A DNA stretch of 64,000 nt from a virus: positions 38,474 to 102,473 of the IMG/VR virus record IMGVR_UViG_3300030110_004345; one strand, written 5' to 3'. The notes under the pieces are model-generated. The model did no database searches, was not told the DNA's origin, and worked only from the letters and a program-made list of their open reading frames with translations. Each line of letters opens with the position of its first letter. The first letter of the stretch is position 1. Position numbers and translations under genes: made by a program. Below are positions 1,742-55,094 of this stretch, one piece after another.

Positions 1742-2621
1742 TGTCCCTCCCTAGTGGATTCCATTCGTTATATGACATTAGAAAGTCTTTCGGTCTGGGT
1801 AGGCTGTGTTCTCCACCTAGCCAAGCTTTTAGACCCTCCCAGGAAGACACATCATAATACCAAGGCAGGCTACACGTTCCTGCGCCTTCTGTATTTACTT
1901 TGCTGAAAACAAAGTCGTGAGTAAAATATCGACCGGTCCAACTTTCAGATGCTTTTAGTTTGTTTAGTTGATCGTCGTAACCTTTTGTTTCGCTTTTCCT
2001 GAAATGTCTTCGGCATTCTAAAAAGTCTTCCGATAGGAAAGTAAAGGGTAGGAAACTGCCATCTTTAAAATTTTGATTATCACATTCCGCATAAAAGTTA
2101 GTGCTCGTGTTTCTTATCGCTGGTCTATGGTCTTTTAACCACCACGGAGAAAACATACCGTAAGGAAACGAAACAAAGTATTTATCTGGATGTGCGAAAC
2201 GGCTTATTTTTCTACTTACGTGCCAAGCATATTGAGCGCCTGTGATAATGCTCCAAGCAAGGCAGTCTCTACGACCTGTATCTTTTGGATGCATTGGTGT
2301 GTAGTAGATGGGAACCTCATAGACTTTTGGTCGTTTACCGAACGTATGTCCTTTATCATAGCGAACAGGATCTATAACCCAGTCTCCTAAACGATACCGT
2401 ATAAGAGGTTGCATATCCTTGGGGCAAACCAACCAGACGGTGTTACAACCTGCGACCACACAGTCAAAGACTGCTTTCTCAACTGCGAGATAGTTGTGTC
2501 CAATGGGCATTAAACTATCATGCCAGGGGAAGTTGAAGTCTAGCGGCTGTCCTGCTACTGGAACTATGCCTGCTAGATTTACGTGTGTTTTATTTTTTAT
2601 TGTTAGTGCGGGTTCATACAT
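1716..2621 (-). CDS. Nucleotidyltransferase-like protein (GT-A fold), tentative
   Basis: A 301-residue protein. Its N terminus (LAGIVPVAG near residue 16, MPIGHNYLAVEKAV, then VVAGCNTVWLVCPKD) follows the layout of NTP_transferase sugar-nucleotide enzymes: a glycine-rich nucleotide loop, a helix, and an alternating strand ending in acidic residues. The classical GxGTRxxP-K signature is not intact, so catalysis is uncertain. The middle carries RRDCLAWSIITGAQYA and FVSFPYGMF, and the C terminus is acidic. It overlaps the next upstream gene by eight bases, so the two form a cassette. Possible roles are modifying a surface sugar or making an activated precursor; neither is shown by the sequence. 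Confidence 0.45.
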   Translation of the reverse strand: MYEPALTIKNKTHVNLAGIVPVAGQPLDFNFPWHDSLMPIGHNYLAVEKAVFDCVVAGCNTVWLVCPKDMQPLIRYRLGDWVIDPVRYDKGHTFGKRPKVYEVPIYYTPMHPKDTGRRDCLAWSIITGAQYAWHVSRKISRFAHPDKYFVSFPYGMFSPWWLKDHRPAIRNTSTNFYAECDNQNFKDGSFLPFTFLSEDFLECRRHFRKSETKGYDDQLNKLKASESWTGRYFTHDFVFSKVNTEGAGTCSLPWYYDVSSWEGLKAWLGGEHSLPRPKDFLMSYNEWNPLGRDIEEDTEDN

Positions 2622-3297
2622 AAATAAACTTTATTTTTTCTGCTTCCTCATAAATGTTCATTTTAGGTTTGACTATTCGTTCTTGGACTTCTAAAACAAT
2701 CTCGTCTCTTTTCATGAAGTTTCCCGTGAAACCTACATCTTTTAGTATTGTCTCTGTCTTGAACTTAGCCATTGTATCAGAAAAATCAAAGTTGTTCAAC
2801 TGCTTTTTAGTTAAGTTTGAAACAACTGCTATCTTTGCTGGACTGTTTATGTAATCTTTGTGAATGTGTATTTCGTTTACTAAGTCGTCGCCTGTTTTAA
2901 GAGTGAAAGCGGTATCCTTGAAAACAAAAGAAACCGCCATCATTGTATCTATTACAGTAAATTGATCGACCTCTTCTTTTTGATCGGGCAAACCTATAAC
3001 ATTTTGGTCATCAAAAAGAGTTACTTTATTGTAAGTTGTTCTATTTATTATATTATTTTTACAGGCGACAGTGATTTCATCATCGTCGACTCGGACTGCT
3101 TTTACATAATCACCACCGATTATTTTGCCGTCCATCATTAGTTTGTAGTAAAGTAGCCCCCAGGCAAGTTTTTTGTCTGAGGGCTCGTAGGAGGGAGGAA
3201 AGGAAGGCTTATTTATTATCAATCTAGTCCCGTGTTGATAAGCCCATTGAAGAGCATTTAAGCTTCCACCAATTGTTATATTAACATCCTGGATCAT
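2614..3297 (-). CDS. Hypothetical protein paired with the nucleotidyltransferase-like gene
   Basis: 227 residues, no family recognised. The N terminus, MIQDVNITIGGSLNALQWAY, reads as a beta strand, a glycine turn (GGS) and a helix, reminiscent of a dinucleotide-binding beta-alpha-beta unit but without the full GxGxxG signature. The remainder is mixed alpha/beta with a basic C-terminal tail. Its start overlaps the transglycosylase gene by 17 bases and its end overlaps the nucleotidyltransferase-like gene, so the three are co-translated. No signal peptide or membrane segment is visible. Confidence 0.7.
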   Translation of the reverse strand: MIQDVNITIGGSLNALQWAYQHGTRLIINKPSFPPSYEPSDKKLAWGLLYYKLMMDGKIIGGDYVKAVRVDDDEITVACKNNIINRTTYNKVTLFDDQNVIGLPDQKEEVDQFTVIDTMMAVSFVFKDTAFTLKTGDDLVNEIHIHKDYINSPAKIAVVSNLTKKQLNNFDFSDTMAKFKTETILKDVGFTGNFMKRDEIVLEVQERIVKPKMNIYEEAEKIKFIYV

Positions 3298-3859
3298 AAT
3301 TTTTAATGTTTCTTTTCCATTTTCTGAGTTTTTTCCAATGTTTTGTCCGTTGGAAGCAGCGATAACGATTTTCTTTCGTTAAGCGACCTCTAACTGCCTG
3401 AGCCCAAGCCCCTAGCCATTTTTGTTTATTTGTGAGTTTGTAACCTCTGCAGCGATTTTTATCACGAGTGTTCGCAACGTGAATCATCCAAACGTGTGCT
3501 GATTGTATTGGATCAAGTCGATTGAGTCCATATTCCTTTTCTGCCCAATGCCAGAACTGAAGTATACCCTTGGCTCTTGGGTGTTTTTTTGTTTTGAAAG
3601 TTATCTTCCAATCGCCCTTTGCTCGGGCGTCATAGCCGCTCTCAACGCACGCGGCTGCTAGCAACATTCCTCGTAGATCTTCTGGGATATTATATGATTG
3701 AAAATAAAAATCCTCTATTTCAACCAGCTTCTCTATTATTCCTGTATCTAAGATTTTTGCCTTTGCGTTTTTACAGTTATATGCTTCACTCATTAAATCA
3801 CTGTAATCATATGATAAATTTGTCACACTAATGACATTTAAAATTAATAATCCTATCAA
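3281..3859 (-). CDS. Lytic transglycosylase / lysozyme-like endolysin (SLT fold)
   Basis: A 192-residue protein with a hydrophobic N terminus (MIGLLILNVISVTN), probably a signal or signal-arrest segment that would direct it to the periplasm. The SLT lysozyme core is visible: LLAAACVESGYDARAKGD near residues 66-83 contains the catalytic glutamate in the E-S-G-Y context, AKGILQFWHWAEKEYGL carries the G-[IL]-[LM]-Q-F motif, and a helix around DPIQSAHVW follows. The C terminus is very basic. The start is TTG (with AAGGAG eight bases upstream), overlapping the thyX stop as TTGA. It may be the lysis enzyme working with the holin and spanin-like genes near 48 kb, or a virion-associated muralytic enzyme; no other endolysin is visible in the window. 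Confidence 0.72.
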   Translation of the reverse strand: MIGLLILNVISVTNLSYDYSDLMSEAYNCKNAKAKILDTGIIEKLVEIEDFYFQSYNIPEDLRGMLLAAACVESGYDARAKGDWKITFKTKKHPRAKGILQFWHWAEKEYGLNRLDPIQSAHVWMIHVANTRDKNRCRGYKLTNKQKWLGAWAQAVRGRLTKENRYRCFQRTKHWKKLRKWKRNIKNYDPGC

Positions 3860-4584
3860 ACCTTATTCTCCTTCCACGCCTCTACAGTTATTGGATACAA
3901 CTCTTGTGAAATATCCAGCATTGCTTTGGCAAGTTGTTGGATTTCCCACTGGGCACCCTCATGTGTGCGTAAATCAATAAACTTAAATAGATTGTTTAAG
4001 TTGGTAGTTGCATAATATTCTGTATAAAGATTTTGTGGAAGCACTCCTCTTGCTTGTTCGCGGCATACTCCTAGCTTTATTAACTTGTTAAAAAGATCCA
4101 AACTTCTCATATGGTGAGCCTGTATAGCTTCACTGGCTTTGTAAGAAGGGATAGGCACCACAGCATTACCAATAAAGATGTCATCAAACTTAGAAATATT
4201 TGGATTTATTAGTTCTTCTATGTTTGATGCTTGTCGGTTTGACTTATGTTGTGTTCTAAGTGCTTCTGGCTCATAGAACTGTAAATTAAAGTCTGTGTAT
4301 CGGCGGCTGATTTCATTGTAAGACCAAGTGCGGTGCCTGTGGTGCTGTGATCGAATATAAAGCGGCACCTTGATGCGAAATGTAACCGTGCAATGTTCCA
4401 AGGTGGAAGTGTGGCGGTGCTTAATTAAATAATTAATTAATTTTTTATCTTTATTTGATAGCTCCTCCACTTCTTTACCAAAACTGACTCTTGCTGAATT
4501 TACAATAGTCATGTCTGATCCCATATGACAAACATAATCTACTTTGCCTATTCCGTCATCGAACAACTGCACGGTTTTCATCAT
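3856..4584 (-). CDS. thyX: Flavin-dependent thymidylate synthase ThyX
   Basis: ThyX makes dTMP from dUMP using methylene-tetrahydrofolate, FAD and NADPH. The family signature RHRxxSxxxxSxR is intact as RHRTWSYNEISRR at residues 83-95. A preceding H-T-S-x-x-E-H segment (HTSTLEHCTVTF, from residue 58) also matches the flavin-site region, and EQARGVLPQNLYTEYYATTNLNNL near the C terminus is the typical substrate-binding helix region. Length (242) is normal for the family. It sits beside nrdJ and the transglycosylase in one tightly packed run, so the phage carries its own dNTP supply. It differs from T4, which uses the unrelated ThyA-type gp td. Confidence 0.95.
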   Translation of the reverse strand: MMKTVQLFDDGIGKVDYVCHMGSDMTIVNSARVSFGKEVEELSNKDKKLINYLIKHRHTSTLEHCTVTFRIKVPLYIRSQHHRHRTWSYNEISRRYTDFNLQFYEPEALRTQHKSNRQASNIEELINPNISKFDDIFIGNAVVPIPSYKASEAIQAHHMRSLDLFNKLIKLGVCREQARGVLPQNLYTEYYATTNLNNLFKFIDLRTHEGAQWEIQQLAKAMLDISQELYPITVEAWKENKV

Positions 4585-4587
4585 ACG

Positions 4588-4872
4588 CTAAACTCCCAAT
4601 ACTCCATAAACGTGGTTTTCTTGAACCAAGAGAAAATCACCTTGGTCTAGACTTGCTGTCTCAACCATCGTATCGTTAACAACAGCTAGATTTCCAACGT
4701 CATCAAGACTAACTTTGGTACAATCAGTTGCAACTTGGCTAATCTTGTATACGCCAAATGGATTCGTCTTTACATTGTAATCATCTGGGAGAAGAATAGT
4801 TGGAGCATCCTCTTCTGCCTGTTGTGGCGCCTCTTCTAACAATAAAAAGCGATTTCGTGGATCTAAACTCAT
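4588..4872 (-). CDS. Possible GroES-like co-chaperonin (gp31-like)
   Basis: 94 residues, all-beta in appearance. The N terminus has P-x-N-R-F-L-L-L-E followed by an acidic loop and ILLPDDY, resembling the start of GroES (a P-x-x-D-R-V-L-V strand and an IVLP mobile-loop end). The rest alternates short strands (VYKISQVA, GNLAVVND, GDFLLVQENHVYGVL), ending as in the GroES barrel. T4 gp31 is the precedent for a phage GroES substitute needed to fold the capsid protein. The resemblance is by eye only and the mobile loop is not clear, so this is tentative. The start overlaps the stop of the upstream gene. Confidence 0.4.
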   Translation of the reverse strand: MSLDPRNRFLLLEEAPQQAEEDAPTILLPDDYNVKTNPFGVYKISQVATDCTKVSLDDVGNLAVVNDTMVETASLDQGDFLLVQENHVYGVLGV

Positions 4873-5168
4873 ACTTCCTCCTTGATTCCGAATTTCTTTT
4901 CAATAATATCGAACATTTCATTTACAGCATCAAGATCGGCTGATTTTTGATACATTCGAAGGGCTTTAACGGCGGACCAAATGTCTTCCTTTGTAAGCCA
5001 ACCGTTCTCGATAAACTCTGTTCTCAACTCTTTCTTTTGCTCTTTATAAGGCTCTATTGCCTCCTCAAGAGCAATCATTGATTTAAGATAGTTAACAATA
5101 TATTCTTCTTTAGACTTTTCATTTTCTGTATTTTCATCTTGTACGACTTGTAGAATAGCTTGATTCAT
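4869..5168 (-). CDS. Hypothetical small acidic helical protein
   Basis: 99 residues, predicted mostly alpha-helical and charged. A central stretch (EEAIEPYKEQKKELRTEF near residues 35-52), then a turn with NGWLTKEDIWSAVKALRMYQ, gives an arrangement loosely like GapR/DUF2312 nucleoid proteins (coiled helix, then a short helix pair). The match is too weak to name. It has a good Shine-Dalgarno (AAGGAG) and is coupled to the GroES-like gene by a GTATGA overlap. It lies downstream of the lipoprotein gene in the same run. Confidence 0.7.
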   Translation of the reverse strand: MNQAILQVVQDENTENEKSKEEYIVNYLKSMIALEEAIEPYKEQKKELRTEFIENGWLTKEDIWSAVKALRMYQKSADLDAVNEMFDIIEKKFGIKEEV

Positions 5169-5177
5169 TTTTTCTCC

Positions 5178-5477
5178 TTAGTAACAACCGTAGTCATAAG
5201 TTTCCCACCGGCAAGTGTCCCAGTAGTAACAATATTCAATATAGCACTCGTAATCAATAACTGTTGGGTCATAAACTACATAACAATCGCAGTCACCAAG
5301 TTCATCATACGATGTGCAATACTCATAATTTCTTGGACCAGTGTAGTAAAAGTTATATTCGCAGGCAGCAACTGGTGGTGCTGACTGGCTGGTAAAGTTT
5401 ACTCTTGAAAAGGGATGAGGTCGCATCTCGCACCCAAGAGTAAGTGCGAGGACCAAACCAATGATTGATTTCTTCAT
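5178..5477 (-). CDS. Tyrosine/cysteine-rich lipoprotein
   Basis: 99 residues. MKKSIIGLVLALTLGC is a textbook lipoprotein signal with an LTLGC lipobox (Cys16 would be lipidated), so the mature part faces the periplasm or outer membrane. The mature chain is extraordinarily rich in Tyr and Cys: from about residue 39 on there are roughly ten cysteines, many next to tyrosine (YECYIEYCYYWDTC), suggesting a compact disulfide-bonded domain. No family is recognised. A sigma70-like promoter ends only six bases upstream of the ATG and there is no Shine-Dalgarno, so the mRNA may be leaderless. Superinfection exclusion or envelope modification is a possible role, but this is inference. Confidence 0.75.
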   Translation of the reverse strand: MKKSIIGLVLALTLGCEMRPHPFSRVNFTSQSAPPVAACEYNFYYTGPRNYEYCTSYDELGDCDCYVVYDPTVIDYECYIEYCYYWDTCRWETYDYGCY

Positions 5478-5483
5478 GGGTAT

Positions 5484-5512
5484 ATAATAATAAACTTTTA
5501 TTATTTTGTCAA
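5484..5512 (-). promoter_or_regulatory. Sigma70-like promoter of the lipoprotein gene, possibly leaderless
   Basis: On the minus strand TTGACA (5512-5507), a 17-base spacer and TATTAT (5489-5484). A start six to seven bases past the -10 falls on or next to the A of the lipoprotein ATG at 5477, which would give an mRNA with little or no 5' leader. It lies in the gap after nrdJ and would also serve the genes down to the transglycosylase. Confidence 0.65.
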
Positions 5513-5521
5513 GGGGTTTTT

Positions 5522-7384
5522 TTATGTAATCTCACAGGCGCCGCCTGCACAAGCCAGTTCGCCTTTGAGATCGGTATTGTCGGATACTTCAACAACTTTG
5601 GACAAATCAATGTCCTCTAGTGTGTCTAGCAGTCTATTGTAGGTTACTTCGTCGCAGTCTTCAAAGGGTGCTTGCTTATAAGTTCCGCCGTCATGAGGAA
5701 GAACTGAAAGACCGTTATAAACGGCTCTGTTATCCCACATCCATTGACCTACAGGCTCCCACTCTTCTTCACGGATGGAAACAGTAGCTGAAACATTGTG
5801 AGTGTTTTGACCTTTTCCGTGTCCGTTCTTTACCCACTGTGTAGATACTTTCTTTACTCTCTCCAACATATCCATAGCGGTTTCGCCTCGTGTGATCGCA
5901 CCTGCGGGTGCTTTCTGCGGAACAGAAATGACTGCGGTGTCATGTGGTCTGAAAAACTCGTCCTCGACCAAATCTGGGTGATAAACAGACAGGTAGTTGT
6001 AGATTGCCTCGTTTTTACCAACCCGTAGTCGACGAATGTAGTATTCATTGTGCCAAGCGTGGATACCAGAAGAAGTGCCAAGAGCTAGGCTTGTTGTTCC
6101 TGCTGGCTTTACACAAGTAGTCCGTGCTGCAGGTTTAATTCCTACGAGATTAGCGATTCTTTTATTTTCTTTCCTAACTTCTTTAGCTGCTTCTTTCATA
6201 TCCAGTTTTAGGACGTTACCAGAGGCAATACCAGTCATAGAAACACCCACAAGAGCGTCTTTTTCGGTAGTTCTACGCCAAACATCACGAAGATAGTGAA
6301 AGTCGGTGTAGGTTGCCTGTAATGTGCCTATGAAAGACGCTGCACGAGAGCGAGCGTTGATTTCTTCTTGTGAGTCAACGTCAGAAGCGTTGATTTCCGT
6401 AAGATTACAGAACTGATAAGGTCTTAGGGCAATCTCACAACACGGATTAGTGCCCCAGTCTTTATCATTTGAGAAATAAAACCCTGGTTCACCTGCTCCT
6501 GAAGCTTTTACACGAAACCAAAGGTCTTTAAAAAACTCTTCTGTGACCAAGTGACGCATAAGAACGATTGAGTTGTTTGCTCTACCACGTTGTGGGTTCT
6601 TTTCCCACCAATGTCCGCTTTTTGCGGAGATCATTTCATCATCACCAGCAGAGAATAGGGATATAAGCGCTGCTCGTCTAATGCCGCCAGCCAAAACTGC
6701 GTCAGCTATATAACAAACCATATCGTGAACTTCAATAGGAGTAAGTTTGTCGCCAACTTCCTTATTTGACAGAACGCCCTCTAGTTTGACTAAACACTCG
6801 CGGAGAGGTTGTGGTCCTGGGGCTCTACCTCCAGAGGTTACGAGACGAGCGCCTTTTGGTCTAATATCGCTGTAGTCAAAGCGAACTTTGGAGCCGCCAA
6901 CAAAATAAGACTTCATTAGAACCTTTACAGCGTCTGCCCAACCTTCTATGGAATCACCGATAAGATGGCGTCTAGTGCGCTTTGTAGATGGGTGAACAAT
7001 CTCGGGAAGCTCCCGTGTGTGATGAAATTGCACACTATAACCAACACCAGTGCCGCCGAGAAGTAAAAACATAACTTCATGAAACGAACGCCAATCATCA
7101 ATAGGAACATAGGCGCAATTAAAGATGCGATTAGGGGCAACTTCAATGGGCTTGCCGCCAAACTGCATAGAACGCATAGAAGGAAGAACTTTTTTATCGT
7201 AAACATATTGATAAGCTGCCTCTATTTCTTCTTTCAACTCTGGAAATTTCTTAAGGTGCATTCCTTTATTTCTGTCTACTAACTCGGACCATACTTCTCT
7301 TCTTTCTTTCTCGGGTAAATACTTTGCATACTTCATGTGGACAGTAATGTCCGACAGGGTTTTGTTAGCAATGTCTTGTGGCAT
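5522..7384 (-). CDS. nrdJ: Adenosylcobalamin-dependent (class II) ribonucleotide reductase
   Basis: 620 residues; reduces ribonucleotides to deoxyribonucleotides using a B12-derived thiyl radical. By the numbering of the Lactobacillus leichmannii enzyme the essential residues are present: Cys90 in RIFNCAYVP (C119), N313-P-C315-C-E317 (N406, C408 thiyl, E410), Cys326 in QFCNL (C419), and the C-terminal redox pair C612-AGGA-C617 (C731/C736 spacing). The GGTGVGYSVQF and PAGTTSLALGTSSGIH loops are typical. It is shorter than the 739-residue L. leichmannii protein. T4 uses class I NrdA/B; class II needs no oxygen but needs host cobalamin. It lies just downstream of the helicase gene and probably shares its promoter. 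Confidence 0.95.
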   Translation of the reverse strand: MPQDIANKTLSDITVHMKYAKYLPEKERREVWSELVDRNKGMHLKKFPELKEEIEAAYQYVYDKKVLPSMRSMQFGGKPIEVAPNRIFNCAYVPIDDWRSFHEVMFLLLGGTGVGYSVQFHHTRELPEIVHPSTKRTRRHLIGDSIEGWADAVKVLMKSYFVGGSKVRFDYSDIRPKGARLVTSGGRAPGPQPLRECLVKLEGVLSNKEVGDKLTPIEVHDMVCYIADAVLAGGIRRAALISLFSAGDDEMISAKSGHWWEKNPQRGRANNSIVLMRHLVTEEFFKDLWFRVKASGAGEPGFYFSNDKDWGTNPCCEIALRPYQFCNLTEINASDVDSQEEINARSRAASFIGTLQATYTDFHYLRDVWRRTTEKDALVGVSMTGIASGNVLKLDMKEAAKEVRKENKRIANLVGIKPAARTTCVKPAGTTSLALGTSSGIHAWHNEYYIRRLRVGKNEAIYNYLSVYHPDLVEDEFFRPHDTAVISVPQKAPAGAITRGETAMDMLERVKKVSTQWVKNGHGKGQNTHNVSATVSIREEEWEPVGQWMWDNRAVYNGLSVLPHDGGTYKQAPFEDCDEVTYNRLLDTLEDIDLSKVVEVSDNTDLKGELACAGGACEIT

Positions 7385-10742: not shown

Positions 10743-11855
10743 TTACGCAGTTTCCTCGTAGAACTCAGTAGCATCACCAGTTCGTTTATCAAACTTGCGA
10801 ACAACTTCTTCATCCATTATTTCAAGAACTCGTGCTTTAAATTTATCATCTTGAAGCTTGTCAATCCAACGTGCAGACTGAAACTTTTCGCTTGTGCCGT
10901 CTTCGAACTTAAGCTCATACCAAGCTCCGGCGCGATCTAAGTGTTCGGATCCTTGGATAGCATCAAACCAACTTTCTTCGTCAGCAACACCGACTTGATC
11001 ACCCCAAAGGATTTGAAACTTACATTGTCGTCCTTGTGAACCAAAACGAGACTTCTCTAGCTTAACCTTGACAGTGTTGCCAATACGATAGCCTTTGTCG
11101 TCAGTTACAAAAGAAGCTTTTGCTTTTGGTCTAGTCAACCATACCCGCAATGAATAAGAATAAATCATTGCCTTGCCACCCGGTGTTACATAAGGTGTAG
11201 TAAGTGTTTCCGATGGTGATCTAGTAATATTTGTCTTAAGCTGATTCAGCACTAGAAATGTCGATTGACTATTCGCGATAGGAACAGTTAACTTAGACAT
11301 ACCCTTTGCTAAAATTCGTGCTTTTACAGCCATACTAGACTGTGGATTGAAGTCACCCTCAACATCAGAGATAGAAGGAGTAAGAGCCAAACTATCCCAG
11401 ATAAAAAGAAACTGACTATCTGTAGAAGAAAGTAGTTCCTCCATTGTCTCCAAAACAAACTCTACCGAGGTTGCTTGGACATATAAAATCTTTGATGGAT
11501 CACACCCCGCTTTCTCTAAGAAGCTGAAGTCTAATGAAGACTCTGAATCAAAGTAAACAACATCAATGCCCATGTCTTGAGCGTTGCCTGCTATTTGTGC
11601 AGCCATATAAGACTTGCCACTTGCTTCTAGTCCAGCTATCTCTGAAACTTTGCCCACTGGAATACCAGCCAGCTTACCACGGCAGATAATACTATCGAGC
11701 CATCTTGATCCAGTTGGAATCCATTGTTTTACCGTTGTTGGATTGTTTGGATCTGCTAGATCCACAGAAACTTCTTGTCCTGCTTTTTTATTTATTAGTT
11801 TTCTCATCTGGTCCATCGATAGACGACCAGCGGATTTCTTTTTAGCCAATCTCAT
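10743..11855 (-). CDS. uvsX: RecA/UvsX recombinase
   Basis: Forms filaments on ssDNA and promotes strand exchange, needed for recombination-dependent replication. Walker A is EIAGLEASGKS, Walker B is QFLFIWDSLAL and the L2-side NSQSTFLVLNQL segment is present. The frame is open back to 11918, but I chose the ATG at 11855 (MRLAKKKSAG) because GAGGAGG lies directly upstream. This overlaps the preceding small gene by 14 bases. Length is about 370 residues, near T4 UvsX (391). Neighbours are the exonuclease and, upstream, the SSB. Confidence 0.9.
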   Translation of the reverse strand: MRLAKKKSAGRLSMDQMRKLINKKAGQEVSVDLADPNNPTTVKQWIPTGSRWLDSIICRGKLAGIPVGKVSEIAGLEASGKSYMAAQIAGNAQDMGIDVVYFDSESSLDFSFLEKAGCDPSKILYVQATSVEFVLETMEELLSSTDSQFLFIWDSLALTPSISDVEGDFNPQSSMAVKARILAKGMSKLTVPIANSQSTFLVLNQLKTNITRSPSETLTTPYVTPGGKAMIYSYSLRVWLTRPKAKASFVTDDKGYRIGNTVKVKLEKSRFGSQGRQCKFQILWGDQVGVADEESWFDAIQGSEHLDRAGAWYELKFEDGTSEKFQSARWIDKLQDDKFKARVLEIMDEEVVRKFDKRTGDATEFYEETA

Positions 11856-12168
11856 GTTCCTCCTCTGTTTGATCACTTCTATCTGGTCTAAAGGCATATA
11901 TAGGACCACGATAGCCACGTTTATCTATCTTCATAGAAACATTGTCTCCAAAGTCTCTGACCTCTAAAATATAATCTTTAGATCGTTGGATTAGATTTGA
12001 AACATCGCTGTTATCAGACCAAAACCAAGCAAATCCTTCTCTAATATCTTGCTTTGAGGCATATGCCGAGGACTCACTATTTGGACCCCCACCAAGACCT
12101 TTGTATCTGCTTGCTAGCTCCCGTAGAGCGTCCTCGAAACCATCGTCTCCTTTTTTCCATTTTTTCAC
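11842..12168 (-). CDS. Hypothetical protein, GTG start
   Basis: 108 residues with no recognised family. It starts with GTG behind AGGAGAAA. The N terminus is basic (KKWKKGDDG), the middle is Gly/Ser-rich (LGGGPNSESSAY), and the end carries basic YRGPIYAFRPDR followed by an acidic tail. It overlaps the uvsX start by 14 bases, so translation is coupled. Position between the SSB and UvsX suggests a recombination accessory role (the place of a UvsY-type mediator), but no sequence similarity to UvsY is evident. Confidence 0.65.
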   Translation of the reverse strand: MKKWKKGDDGFEDALRELASRYKGLGGGPNSESSAYASKQDIREGFAWFWSDNSDVSNLIQRSKDYILEVRDFGDNVSMKIDKRGYRGPIYAFRPDRSDQTEEEHEIG

Positions 12169-50052: not shown

Positions 50053-53000
50053 TCAAATCATAATGTGTGCGAACCCCTCTTTTTTATCAATCGTGATTTG
50101 TTGGTCCACACAATCTTTAAGATGGTCAAGGTGAGAAATCAAAATGACCGTTTTAAAGTATGTCTTAATTAGTTCTAAAATTGAAATAAAACCATCCATA
50201 TTCTCGGCATCTAACGCAGTCCCCGGCTCATCAAGAATAAAGACGTTAGACTTTGGAAGAGATGATACAGATAGAAGGGCAAGACGAATAGCCATTGCTG
50301 CTAGCGTCTTCTCTGCGCCTGAGCCCATTTCAATAGGGCGACGATCATATTTTGGATGCTTAATAAATATATTAAGTCTTTTTTCTTCTGCCTCAAAGAA
50401 AATCTCAAAGTCTACAACGTTGGCTAAGATGCGAGACATTTCATCATTGATAATAGGCAGCTTCTTTTTGATAATGTCATAAGCAATGCCGTTAGGGTGC
50501 ATACACTTCATTAGAAGGTCAAAGGCTGTCATCTCGTTTTGTAGATTATGTAGCCATTCTTTCTTTTCTTGTAGTGTCTTAACCTTTTGAGCTAGTGAGC
50601 CATTCTCTCTGTGGAGTTTTAGCAACTCGTCTTGGCAGCATTTTATATCCTTTTGTTTTGTTAATAAAGCTTTCGCTACTTTTGCCAACTCCAAAGTAAA
50701 CAATTCTTTATTTTCTATAAGGTCTTTGTTTTTATTATAGTCATTAATCAAAAGGTTGAGCTTCTGAACTTCGTTCTGTGCTGTAAGTATGGAGTTCTCC
50801 CACTTACCCTTTTCAAGATCGGTTTTAAGAACAACTTTTTCAGCTTCTCTTCGCTTCTCCATTAGTTTTTTGTATTTTTCTAGATGTGAGTTTATTTTTT
50901 CTTCGTCAGTCTTATTCAGTAGACTTTCTGCTTTATGCTTTTGCTCGTTTATCGATTGAACTTGTCCCACGAGATCTACTAGGGTTTCTTTCGAAGCGTG
51001 AGCGTCTTTGATAAACTTACAAGACTTGAACTTATCTCCACAAGGAACATCGCCAAGAAGCTTTACTTTTTTCTCGTTTAGTTTTTTAAGATTCTCTGCG
51101 TTTTCTAGCTCCATTAGAAGATTGCTTATTTTGAGAAGTTTTTCGTCTATTTCGTCTTTTTGATTTTTCACGGAGACTATATCAAAAGATTCCTCAAACT
51201 TCCCAATCTTGTCTAAAAGTTCTTTCTTTTCAGCAAGTATTATATCACACTGACTAACACTGGTGTTGTAAGTCTGGATATTCTGTTCTTGTTTAGTTTT
51301 TTTCTGTAGAACTTCGTCAATGTTAATGACTTCTGCCGGAATAGAACTTATCTTTGTTTCAAGATCTTTTTTGTCCATTTGTAGAGACATTAACTCGCCG
51401 TTTAGTTTCTCACAGGTTTGGTTTTGCTCCTGTATGTTGTTTTCAGAAAACATCATTTGTTTTTCTATTTCATAGATTTCGCTATCATAGTCAATATCTT
51501 CTGCTTTACGGAGTGCGCCGCGAAGATCTGTTGCCTCGTCTTTGATCAACTTATACTTTTTCTCAAAGAACTGGAGGTCTAGAAACTTTGCGAGTGCTTC
51601 TTTCCTTTTTGTAGAACCATCGTTGATAAAACGAAGAGAGTCAATCTGCGAAGACATAGAAGTCATTAGGAAATCATCGACGTTGCCAAAATGATTTCTG
51701 ATAATAGCGTCAGTTTCATTTCTAGTCGTGCCGTTGAGAATGGTTTCTTCTTCCGTTACAATATCTTTTACCTTAAATAAAATATCTGTTTTGGCTTCTA
51801 CTGTTTCGTCGCCTCTAAGTTTTTTGATATACTTTTCGCTTTTGCGTTCGATTGTATAACTTTTAGGTCCAACATCGATTGTAACTGAACCAAGAGCTTC
51901 TTCTTTGTTTTGATTGATAATGTTGAGGTTTTTACGTTCGTTCTTGCTTGTTGAGTTGAAGATAGTGTAGAGCATACTATCGACAACTGAGGACTTACCA
52001 GAAAAGTTTTTACCAAAAATGCCGATGATACCGTTTAACTTATCAAAGTTTATAGAGTTGTCCTCGCCATAGTTAAATAAGTTATTCCACTGCATAGAGC
52101 GCAAGTTCCAGTTTATATTGCGCTGAACGTCTTCTTTTTCCGCTAAGGCGGTATTACATTTGCGATTTAGTTCATATACCGCTTCTAACTGCTCGTCTGT
52201 CGCCTCAAAGTCTTTTAAATACTCTTTGATAAGTTTTTCTTGAACTGTGACGTCACGTAGATTGTCTTCTACATCGTCAGTTGCCAGATCTTCGACGCTG
52301 CCTCTTTGACCAGCAGAGCGGTTTAGATAACCAATGCTTTCTGGTTTAAATCTGTGTTTGGCTGCGTCAATAGCTCGTCTCATCGTGCTAACAGGCAGAC
52401 TATTTTCTGAAACAAGACGAATACGAGCACCCAAAGGGCAATCTGTATTTTTGGGCAATCGACCAGTTCTAGTTAGATTGATAGTGACGAAAGGCTTTGG
52501 ATTTGGAATTACGACATGCTTCACCGTAAAGTTTTCTTTGTCTTGGATATCCCAAATAAGAAAACCTTTATCATTCGTCTCTCCGAAGTTCTGCTGAACA
52601 GTAGAACCTGGATACCGTATTTTTCCTGCGTCGTCTAGTGCTTGATTTGTTTTATGGATGTCGCCTAAAAAGGCGTAGTCGAATTCGTCAAAGATCGATA
52701 TCTCGTTTTCTCCGTGCTGCATTGTCCAGCCGACATCCGTGCGGCAATTTGAAATAGACCCGTGATACAGACCAATGTTAATAACATTATAGTCGGTAGG
52801 ATCTCTCCAATTATCCCTATCAAATACGCTAAGAACGTTGAGACATATTTCTTCATTTATTTTTACCTCTCCGCTATTCTTCAACAAGAAGAGGTTTGGA
52901 AGATCCAAAGCTTCAACTATTGGAGTAATAGCATCTTCTCGGCTACTATTTTTCAAGTTGCCGTCATGGTTTCCAAGTATTATATAGGTCGGTGCGACAG

Positions 53001-53211
53001 AACTTAACCCACTTAGGAATTCTGAACACATTTTTACAAACTCAGGAGAGATGTTTGTCTTGGAGTGTGCGATATCTCCACAATGAATAATATAATCTAC
53101 CTTTTCTTCGCGTAAGTGCTCGTAAAGTTTAGAGAAAACCTCACGATACTCTGTGTGATATTTCAGATTTTTTATGTGCGTATCCGCGATATGGGCGATT
53201 TTATAACTCAT
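50053..53211 (-). CDS. Fused SbcD-SbcC (gp47-gp46) recombination nuclease
   Basis: 1052 residues in one frame joining the two T4 subunits. Residues 1 to about 330 are the Mre11/SbcD phosphoesterase: D10-x-H12, G45-D46, G80-N81-H82-D83, H150, and G183-D184-I-H186. From about 375 comes the Rad50/SbcC ATPase: Walker A G400-KNFS-G405-K-S, a long coiled coil with a zinc-hook-like CGDKFKSC (C-x6-C rather than CxxC), signature MGSGAEKTLAAMAIR, Walker B VFILDEPGTALD and the switch His in VILISH. It would process DNA ends for UvsX recombination. The join passes through a helical linker (about 320-370) with no stop codon or overlap. Confidence 0.93.
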   Translation of the reverse strand: MSYKIAHIADTHIKNLKYHTEYREVFSKLYEHLREEKVDYIIHCGDIAHSKTNISPEFVKMCSEFLSGLSSVAPTYIILGNHDGNLKNSSREDAITPIVEALDLPNLFLLKNSGEVKINEEICLNVLSVFDRDNWRDPTDYNVINIGLYHGSISNCRTDVGWTMQHGENEISIFDEFDYAFLGDIHKTNQALDDAGKIRYPGSTVQQNFGETNDKGFLIWDIQDKENFTVKHVVIPNPKPFVTINLTRTGRLPKNTDCPLGARIRLVSENSLPVSTMRRAIDAAKHRFKPESIGYLNRSAGQRGSVEDLATDDVEDNLRDVTVQEKLIKEYLKDFEATDEQLEAVYELNRKCNTALAEKEDVQRNINWNLRSMQWNNLFNYGEDNSINFDKLNGIIGIFGKNFSGKSSVVDSMLYTIFNSTSKNERKNLNIINQNKEEALGSVTIDVGPKSYTIERKSEKYIKKLRGDETVEAKTDILFKVKDIVTEEETILNGTTRNETDAIIRNHFGNVDDFLMTSMSSQIDSLRFINDGSTKRKEALAKFLDLQFFEKKYKLIKDEATDLRGALRKAEDIDYDSEIYEIEKQMMFSENNIQEQNQTCEKLNGELMSLQMDKKDLETKISSIPAEVINIDEVLQKKTKQEQNIQTYNTSVSQCDIILAEKKELLDKIGKFEESFDIVSVKNQKDEIDEKLLKISNLLMELENAENLKKLNEKKVKLLGDVPCGDKFKSCKFIKDAHASKETLVDLVGQVQSINEQKHKAESLLNKTDEEKINSHLEKYKKLMEKRREAEKVVLKTDLEKGKWENSILTAQNEVQKLNLLINDYNKNKDLIENKELFTLELAKVAKALLTKQKDIKCCQDELLKLHRENGSLAQKVKTLQEKKEWLHNLQNEMTAFDLLMKCMHPNGIAYDIIKKKLPIINDEMSRILANVVDFEIFFEAEEKRLNIFIKHPKYDRRPIEMGSGAEKTLAAMAIRLALLSVSSLPKSNVFILDEPGTALDAENMDGFISILELIKTYFKTVILISHLDHLKDCVDQQITIDKKEGFAHIMI

Positions 53212-54127
53212 TCATGCTCCAATAAATATTAAAAATACTTTCTAAATTAATTTGCGATGCATCTGATTTCAACTCTTCTGCCTCTGTTTTTGTTATGGAA
53301 CCGATATCATCTATTTCTGAAGTATCTAGCTTGTATACGTCTAGTCCGTATTCTAATAACAGAGATATAATTTTCATTGACTTATTTAATGCATCTTCGT
53401 CCAAGCCAATATAAACTTTTGTTTGTTTTTCTACAATCTTTTTAAATAACTTTGTCGTTTCCTTCAAGGTTGAACCAAGAATGGGAATAGAGTTTTTCAT
53501 TTTGATAGAATCAAACGGACCCTCTACAAGAGTTATCGGTTTGTTCCAATCAATCAAAAGATCATTAAAAATAATATTTTTTGACGCTGGTGGATTTTTA
53601 TAAGACAGCCAATCACCGCTATAAGACCGTGCTGTAAAATAATTACAATTACCCTCATCGTCAAAGGACGGTATTATTATACGCTTTTTATACTTACCTG
53701 TCAAGCAAAATCCTATCTTATGATATAATATATCTTTTTGTCCTATACCTCTGGACCATAAGTAAGATATAGCTTCGTCAGCAGCAGGGGGCAAACCTTT
53801 CTTTGCTAGACACATATATTCTGGTGGGATATCCACAGGTTGCAACTTTTCTTCTGGCTGATTAAAAATCAAGTCCATTGTGGAAAAGTCGACCTCTTGA
53901 TCTAGCAGAGCCCAATCATGACGGTCATCAATTGATCCAAAGCGTTTTATGAGATAGGATATCGCGCCTTTTGTATCGCAAACCCAACATTTAAAAAAAC
54001 CTTTGGTCACATTGACTGACAGTTTCTTTTTGTGGTGTTTACAAAAGGGGCAATGATGGAGTGTCTCGTCTCTTGAGTCATATCCAGATCCAAGGACTTC
54101 TTTTAGAATAGTTTTTTTATTTCTCAT
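53201..54127 (-). CDS. DNA primase, DnaG/gp61 type
   Basis: 308 residues. An N-terminal zinc-binding domain (C26-P-F-C29 ... C47-W-V-C50) for template recognition is followed by a Toprim fold: ITLVEGPFDSIKMKN near 197-211 with the catalytic Glu, and VYIGLDEDALNKSM near 238-251 with the D-x-D. It makes RNA primers with the helicase at 7.4-8.8 kb. Length is close to T4 gp61 (342 residues). It overlaps the recombination nuclease gene by 11 bases. Confidence 0.9.
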   Translation of the reverse strand: MRNKKTILKEVLGSGYDSRDETLHHCPFCKHHKKKLSVNVTKGFFKCWVCDTKGAISYLIKRFGSIDDRHDWALLDQEVDFSTMDLIFNQPEEKLQPVDIPPEYMCLAKKGLPPAADEAISYLWSRGIGQKDILYHKIGFCLTGKYKKRIIIPSFDDEGNCNYFTARSYSGDWLSYKNPPASKNIIFNDLLIDWNKPITLVEGPFDSIKMKNSIPILGSTLKETTKLFKKIVEKQTKVYIGLDEDALNKSMKIISLLLEYGLDVYKLDTSEIDDIGSITKTEAEELKSDASQINLESIFNIYWSMNEL

Positions 54128-54585
54128 TTAGAATGTTTGTCTGCGACTACTGAAGCTGCAAAAGAATCAGGCTTGATCTTACAAGCGAATCCAGATCCAA
54201 CTGCGTAGCCTACTAGCATTTTAGCCATAGGTGAGGTTCTATTATTACATTCTTCTGGTGAAATGTCAATATGTATTTCTACATTTGTTGTTGGGCATAA
54301 TTCTGTTATCTTCATTGCCATATTTATTGACTTCTCAGCTTCCTTAAGAATGCGGTTGTAAAATCTATCAGGGTCATTATACTTTTCTATTTTATAAAAG
54401 TAAAGACCTCCTTTTTGATTTTGAGCGCCGACGAGGACAATAGTGGTTGTAAATGTGCATTTTCCCGTTTTTACATGAGAATCTGTTCCTACAATAACCT
54501 GTCCTTTGTTTTTATTATGAGTTTTTATTTTTTGTGTGATATCGAAAAAGTTAATGGATTTACCTGCACCGGTAGTCCAGTTCAT
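54124..54585 (-). CDS. YkuK/DUF458-like RNase H-fold protein
   Basis: 153 residues. VIVGTDSHVKTGKCTFTTTI near 30-50 provides an Asp at a first strand (G-T-D-S-H), then a hairpin; the middle helix (DRFYNRILKEAEKSINMAMK) and VEIHIDISPEECNN supply further acidic residues, and ACKIKPDSFAASVVADKHSK ends the fold. This order matches the Bacillus YkuK-type family of unknown function with an RNase H-like core. It is co-translated with the RuvC-like resolvase and the primase, so a DNA or RNA processing role is likely. Confidence 0.7.
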   Translation of the reverse strand: MNWTTGAGKSINFFDITQKIKTHNKNKGQVIVGTDSHVKTGKCTFTTTIVLVGAQNQKGGLYFYKIEKYNDPDRFYNRILKEAEKSINMAMKITELCPTTNVEIHIDISPEECNNRTSPMAKMLVGYAVGSGFACKIKPDSFAASVVADKHSK

Positions 54586-55094
54586 TTTAGCCCTGCCTTT
54601 GCTACTACTATTGCATCAGCAATATCAAAGTATTTTGGTCTAGGATTACCTTTGTGTGTATATTCTACACTAAAGTCAGGGTAGTTGTCAAGCACCCATT
54701 GTAGGATTTGTTTTTTTGTATCTTTACCCTTTTGAACCTTTATTTCGTTAAGTTTTCGTGCTTGCTGGGCAGTAAAGTAGGTTGGTTGATGCTTGAACGT
54801 CTCATAACATATCCACGACACTGTGCCATTAAACTTTTGCAATGCTGCCATAGTTTTTGCTGTAGAGCCTCCAGAACCAAAAAACATAAAAGGTTTCTCT
54901 ATAAATACCTTCTGGATGGGGTATTGTGCTTTTAGTTCTTGTAGTCCGTCTTTAACGTGTTGAATTTTATCAAAAAATGTTTCAAACTTATTTTTATTTC
55001 TTGTGTCCCAAACGCCAGAGCGGATTATTTCACCTTCCCCGTCTAAGATACAAAACCCAGTTATACTGGTGCTTATATCTAATCCTAAAATCAT
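54582..55094 (-). CDS. RuvC-like Holliday junction resolvase
   Basis: 170 residues, RNase H-like fold. D6 in MILGLDISTS, E66 in KVFIEKPFM, and D157/D160 in FDIADAIVVAKAG form the four-acid metal site of RuvC-type nucleases, with lengths between them normal for the family. T4 resolves branches with the unrelated gp49 endonuclease VII. The gene precedes the YkuK-like gene, primase and recombination nuclease in one transcript, so it probably processes branched intermediates before packaging. Confidence 0.85.
   Translation of the reverse strand: MILGLDISTSITGFCILDGEGEIIRSGVWDTRNKNKFETFFDKIQHVKDGLQELKAQYPIQKVFIEKPFMFFGSGGSTAKTMAALQKFNGTVSWICYETFKHQPTYFTAQQARKLNEIKVQKGKDTKKQILQWVLDNYPDFSVEYTHKGNPRPKYFDIADAIVVAKAGLK

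Follow-up and report, generated by a model that had tools for sequence, protein, structure and literature searches.

In phage T4 the nuclease gp47 and the ATPase gp46, counterparts of Mre11 (SbcD) and Rad50 (SbcC), act in end processing during recombination and recombination-dependent replication, and the normal Mre11-Rad50 complex is a 2:2 assembly. The sequence-only reading that preceded this analysis described the two T4 genes as separate and adjacent; they are indeed separate, but two small ORFs lie between 47 and 46. The order, SbcD before SbcC, is shared with the fusion examined here; the gp46 hook is CPTC and nuclease motif V of gp47 is GHFH. The literature describes the zinc hook of Rad50 as a CXXC motif that is conserved across all domains of life (PMC9569753, PMC5093744). 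Nuclease and ATPase have also been found in one chain. According to the 2011 paper of Yoshida, Claverie and Ogata (PMC3175470), Mre11/Rad50 (SbcDC) fusions occur in Mimivirus (R555), eukaryotes, bacteria, plasmids, Bacillus phage 0305phi8-36 and aquatic viral metagenomes, where they are abundant and lie on scaffolds also carrying phage genes such as primases. The same text gives two departures from the nuclease motifs in R555: in motif II the third Asp has become a His, and His206 is replaced by Asp.

The window analysed here is a stretch of 64,000 nucleotides from a 107-kb virus record (IMG/VR IMGVR_UViG_3300030110_004345). It contains an SbcD and an SbcC part in one uninterrupted minus-strand frame of 1052 residues, from an ATG at 53211 to a stop at 50053; read on the plus strand, the same interval has 54 stops. 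That the two proteins share a single frame, as first proposed from the letters alone, is borne out by the ORF, by Pfam and PHROGs and by 221 fused homologues. Pfam places Metallophos at residues 4-99 and AAA_23 at 376-609, with a weaker SMC_N match at 372-1043, and PHROGs assigns SbcD to residues 2-343 and SbcC to 311-1047. Sequence matches in the PDB divide in the same way, Mre11/SbcD chains matching the N-terminal part and Rad50 chains the C-terminal part. The order along the chain is an N-terminal Mre11 part, a predicted helix pair, a short linker and the Rad50 part, whose ATPase motifs are split by a long coiled coil (Table 1).

Table 1 Positions in the window of the fused gene, the parts of its product and the associated genes
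Feature	Position	Strand	Basis
Fused SbcD-SbcC (Mre11-Rad50) gene	50053..53211	-	ORF, Pfam, PHROGs; single frame in 221 distinct full-length homologues
SbcD/Mre11 calcineurin-like phosphoesterase and capping domain, aa 1-300	52312..53211	-	Pfam Metallophos, invariant columns, AlphaFold
Predicted helix pair, aa 321-359 (H321-335, H339-359)	52135..52251	-	AlphaFold secondary structure
Linker between nuclease and ATPase parts, aa 360-366 (7 residues)	52114..52134	-	AlphaFold model
Rad50 ATPase N-lobe, aa 367-546 (Walker A at 51991-52014)	51574..52113	-	Pfam, motifs, AlphaFold
Coiled coil, ascending arm, aa 547-722	51046..51573	-	AlphaFold model
Hook region, aa 715-740, containing VPCGDKFKSCKFIKDA	50992..51069	-	Alignment, motif pattern, AlphaFold
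Coiled coil, descending arm, aa 732-904	50500..51018	-	AlphaFold model
Rad50 ATPase C-lobe, aa 905-1052, stop included (signature, Walker B, H-loop)	50053..50499	-	Motifs, PDB matches
DnaG-type primase, directly upstream, 11-base overlap with the fusion gene start	53201..54127	-	phrog_47 DNA primase
RuvC-like Holliday-junction resolvase, in the gene string shared with the fusion	54582..55094	-	Pfam, PHROGs
RecA/UvsX-type recombinase	10743..11918	-	PF00154, E 1.6e-32

The ATPase has Walker A (GKNFSGKS) at residue 400, the signature region at 962, Walker B (FILDE) at 991-995 and the H-loop at 1025-1029. Nuclease motifs I-V are all present and invariant or nearly so (DTH10-12, GDIAH45-49, GNHD80-83, YHG149-151 and GDIH183-186), and in an alignment of 19 sequences, with homologues 47-90% identical to the window protein, all nuclease and ATPase motifs are kept. 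The earlier statement that every motif lies in one frame therefore holds as to presence; two of them are each off by one residue, motif II being GDIAH rather than GDxxD and motif V GDIH rather than GHxH. The AlphaFold2 model, run with 19 homologues (mean pLDDT 78, pTM 0.49), shows a long antiparallel coil with its apex at residues 722-731; with a pTM of 0.49 the packing of the domains in the model is unreliable. Foldseek matches it to Rad50/SbcC, to other SMC-type ATPases and to one Mre11 chain (3tho_B). The predicted helix pair corresponds in position to the helix-loop-helix with which Mre11 binds Rad50; such a binding role is drawn by analogy with T. maritima, which is discussed in PMC3175470.

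No second SbcC- or SbcD-like gene was found in the 107-kb record, so that the fusion is the sole copy there, and a DnaB-like helicase is encoded in the same record. A protein of 153 residues lies between the RuvC-like gene and the primase (minus strand, 54124-54585); it is RNase H-like (PF04308, E 6e-33) and matches phrog_11311, to which PHROGs assigns no function.

On described features the window protein resembles R555. Both have the same domain order in one chain and, as far as the accessible text of PMC3175470 describes them, both share the two nuclease departures, and the R555-type metagenomic scaffolds, like the window, have phage genes such as primases nearby. Among the 221 homologues the R555-like change is found in motif II of 217 and in motif V of 219. 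R555 is longer, at 1351 residues, and the likeness drawn here is one of described features; the accessible part of that account has neither a CX6C hook nor hook exchange in the R555-type fusions. On these features we assign the window fusion to the R555 type. The novelty implied for the fusion by the sequence-only reading does not stand, as such fusions were published in 2011 and occur in cultured phages as well; what the window adds to the published type is a large and coherent marine family.

The cultured phages that have nuclease and ATPase in one chain are RHph_TM30 (gp240), pT24 (gp019), Mel-JY01, IME392, Vibrio 1.031.O, Carin-5 and Ab1-TPeters, between them phages of Rhizobium, Tenacibaculum, Microcystis, Vibrio, Escherichia, Acinetobacter and Cobetia. 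In pT24 Pfam matches the nuclease part only, and the ATPase is recognised by its motifs. All seven have CXXC hooks, unlike the window protein. In a tree from the concatenated parts the fused phage proteins fall into two groups. That of the window also contains Mel-JY01, LR756501 and pT24; the second is made up of the phages of Rhizobium, Escherichia, Vibrio, Cobetia and Acinetobacter (RHph_TM30, IME392, Vibrio 1.031.O, Carin-5, Ab1-TPeters). The root of the tree is unsure, and the fusion may have had one origin or two. Motif V is GDIH in most fused phage nucleases (L146, L154 and L156 were compared with T4-like gp47) and GHxH in all the unfused nucleases checked; Carin-5, fused and with GHIH, is the exception.

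The fusion was sought in relatives of the window, and 221 distinct full-length fused ORFs were recovered across all gathered loci, with at least 559 confirmed relatives in an alignment-based scan. The 221 come from independent contigs, which excludes both a missed stop and a misassembly at the junction. In the few loci that lack a whole frame, it is masked or cut by the end of the contig or locus, or else interrupted (in L038 and possibly in L323) or frameshifted (in L239). Over codons 301-370 the window and its relative L002 differ by 31 synonymous and 7 non-synonymous changes, from which we conclude that the junction is translated and that purifying selection acts on it. Close to the start of the ATPase lie a possible in-frame ATG (residue 373) and a TTG (residue 370), internal starts from which a separate SbcC could in principle be made; M373 is present in only 6 of 19 homologues, so this start is not conserved. 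Taken with the identical open frame in so many homologues, these data speak against a missed stop, a frameshift or an internal start, and we consider it extremely improbable that the fused frame is such an artefact or that two chains arise in vivo, be it by internal initiation or by proteolysis. To the extent that sequence can show it, the fusion is real and is made as a single chain.

A search for unfused relatives with the CX6C hook gave 119 pattern matches. In 91 of them the frame also includes the nuclease. Another 27 are homologous ORFs: 26 of these extend past the left end of the available stretch, and one is that of L239, whose locus is disrupted by several frame shifts. The remaining match, of 37 codons, is due to chance. 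Close matches in metagenome-assembled bacterial genomes (MAGs; L120-L123) look like misbinned phage contigs or stretches, and for this reason we infer no host.

By analogy with T4, the likely role of the fusion protein is end processing for recombination and recombination-dependent replication, as a functional counterpart of gp47 plus gp46 in a single chain. Two chains would pair at their ATPase heads and their nuclease domains and so form the usual M2R2 complex, a geometry that we infer. The covalent link had been taken to fix a 1:1 stoichiometry; this would be no change, the complex already being Mre11(2)-Rad50(2). ATP-driven clamping at DNA ends would feed the nuclease, which would resect or trim the ends so that a RecA-like recombinase could start recombination and recombination-dependent replication; the RecA/UvsX-type recombinase of the window is the likely partner. 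Mn-dependent nuclease activity and ATPase activity, as in SbcCD/Mre11-Rad50, are presumed, and the changes in motifs II and V could lower or alter that of the nuclease. At the coil apex a CX6C pair stands in for the CXXC zinc hook and probably still binds metal between the chains, and on this reading related phages have repeatedly swapped hook forms by recombination of the coiled-coil tip. We consider this reading, a single-chain, R555-like Mre11-Rad50 end-processing enzyme with a CX6C hook and two recombinationally exchanged hook forms, highly probable.

The hook matters more than the fusion, as a different cysteine spacing is strongly conserved in a natural family. The CXXC hook is absent from the window protein; in its place C724 and C731 stand at the apex of the coil, where AlphaFold predicts residues 722-731 to be non-helical. 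The earlier observation that the hook reads CGDKFKSC rather than CxxC is confirmed, and CX6C is conserved, though not universal, in the window's clade. CXXC hooks are found in the unfused proteins of T4, P-SSM2, Cr30, Melnitz, AG-345-L05, BSP38 and E. coli; in MTATph1, also unfused, no hook was found by the CXXC pattern. Among 97 distinct window-clade sequences, chosen for relatedness irrespective of their hook, with Mel-JY01 and LR756501 included as outgroups, 75 have CX6C, 12 CX7C and 10 CX2C. These fall into two forms. The first, that of the window, is PCGxxFxxCKFI (longer, LLxxIPCGxxFxxCKFIKDA) and has CX6C or CX7C, which grade into each other; the second, with CX2C, is HEYDPDCxFC (longer, LLExHEYDPDCKFCCENKFVKDA). 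Mel-JY01, at 29% identity, carries the CX2C form almost word for word. A literature search, with most subscription papers outside its reach, found neither a CX6C hook nor a natural hook exchange, and we regard the hook result as provisionally new.

The distribution of the two forms is mosaic. In trees built from head-domain columns only, the forms alternate 7 times among 98 sequences, 6 of these alternations being forced by well-supported branches, and 13 times (11 forced) among 221 sequences after the addition of pattern-selected loci; selection of the larger set on two hook patterns affects the proportions of the forms and not the existence of switches. Nine pairs with heads 85-98% identical differ in hook class, and their hooks are 30-42% identical, against a mean hook identity of 87% in same-class pairs (n = 99). 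In distant pairs (heads 55-70% identical) hooks of the same class average 57% identity, with 22% in the coil arm, and hooks of different class 30%. Even where the heads of two proteins are nearly identical (97%), a block of ~70-100 codons surrounding the hook can be different. L195 and L295, for example, agree at 670 of 697 positions (96%) over amino acid columns 1-697, up to the sequence LKSSN, and past it at 9, 16 and 23 of successive 35; agreement returns to 36 of 40 from column 802 and to 205 of 212 beyond 842. At the nucleotide level their identity drops from 0.88 through 0.53 to 0.40 and is back at ~0.84 within ~100 codons, with a sharp left edge. The most likely account of this difference is that a segment comprising the apex and part of each arm was replaced. 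No close donor of the L295 tip was found, the best non-sister match being 35-39% identical.

Hook-form switching is, in our best reading of the sequences, recombinational exchange of the coiled-coil tip. Repeated point mutation could be proposed in its place, as the coil evolves quickly and CX6C and CX7C are not sharply divided. The two forms, however, differ at many positions and in length, no intermediates linking CX2C with CX6C were observed, both sequences turn up repeatedly on distant lineages and the change between L195 and L295 is a block with an abrupt edge; we regard point mutation as very unlikely. The metal-binding spacing differs between the forms, which might point instead to habitat or metal supply (zinc-poor ocean against fresh water, for example) as the cause of hook type. 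Contigs of both forms share sample numbers (3300008448, 3300008267, 3300017777, 3300021197, 3300042691, 3300006802 and 3300021092), and on these sample numbers we set this cause aside as improbable. The homologues are metagenomic contigs, and some of the mosaics could in principle be chimeric assemblies; several, however, are represented by at least two contigs per side, and the comparison of L094 and L103 with L084 and L086, with two contigs on each side, speaks against this.

The CX6C pair itself probably still binds metal between two chains. It might instead form a structural or disulfide turn, dimerisation at the apex being lost or mediated by protein alone: the described hooks use CXXC (PMC9569753, PMC5093744), the hook segment has no match in the PDB and no solved precedent was found for CX6C spacing. 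Against this, both cysteines are invariant in the 19 aligned sequences within an otherwise variable coil, they stand at the apex of the model and CX6C alternates with classic CX2C within one protein family. A hook without metal is possible, though we doubt it; metal binding by the CX6C pair is the reading that we retain. Beyond this we suggest, very tentatively and as the less likely case, that the tip is an exchangeable specificity module, the hook forms dimerising like with like and both being kept by selection; if true, this might stop mixed complexes in co-infection, for example, or allow escape from a hook-targeting factor. Switches of hook type between close relatives provide matched natural pairs for testing the function of the hook metal site. 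There is a laboratory precedent: PMC6969161 describes the hook of human Rad50 as a module for dimerisation that can be interchanged with an SMC hinge.

Some of the homologous loci are disrupted. In L038 (LR756508.1, a 484-kb phage) the fused gene, at 1944-6169, is interrupted directly 3' of the nuclease motif GDIHK. The insert, of ~1 kb, contains an ORF of 305 residues whose product has cysteine-rich fingers together with a TnsA-like endonuclease domain; it looks like a mobile endonuclease insertion at the catalytic motif, and Rfam gave no intron match in the interrupted gene. L323 has a minus-strand frame of 771 residues at 3598 that encodes a CX2C-hook ATPase, closed at its left end and without the nuclease part, which could be a split, interrupted or frameshifted gene. 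In L239 the fusion gene (3424-6500) is spread over several frames of one contig, probably through sequencing errors or as a decayed copy, with a TnsA-like endonuclease ORF upstream. In L043 a tandem copy of the gene's final 60 codons follows the stop of the fusion gene (7180-7359), the repeat being 88% identical to the window.
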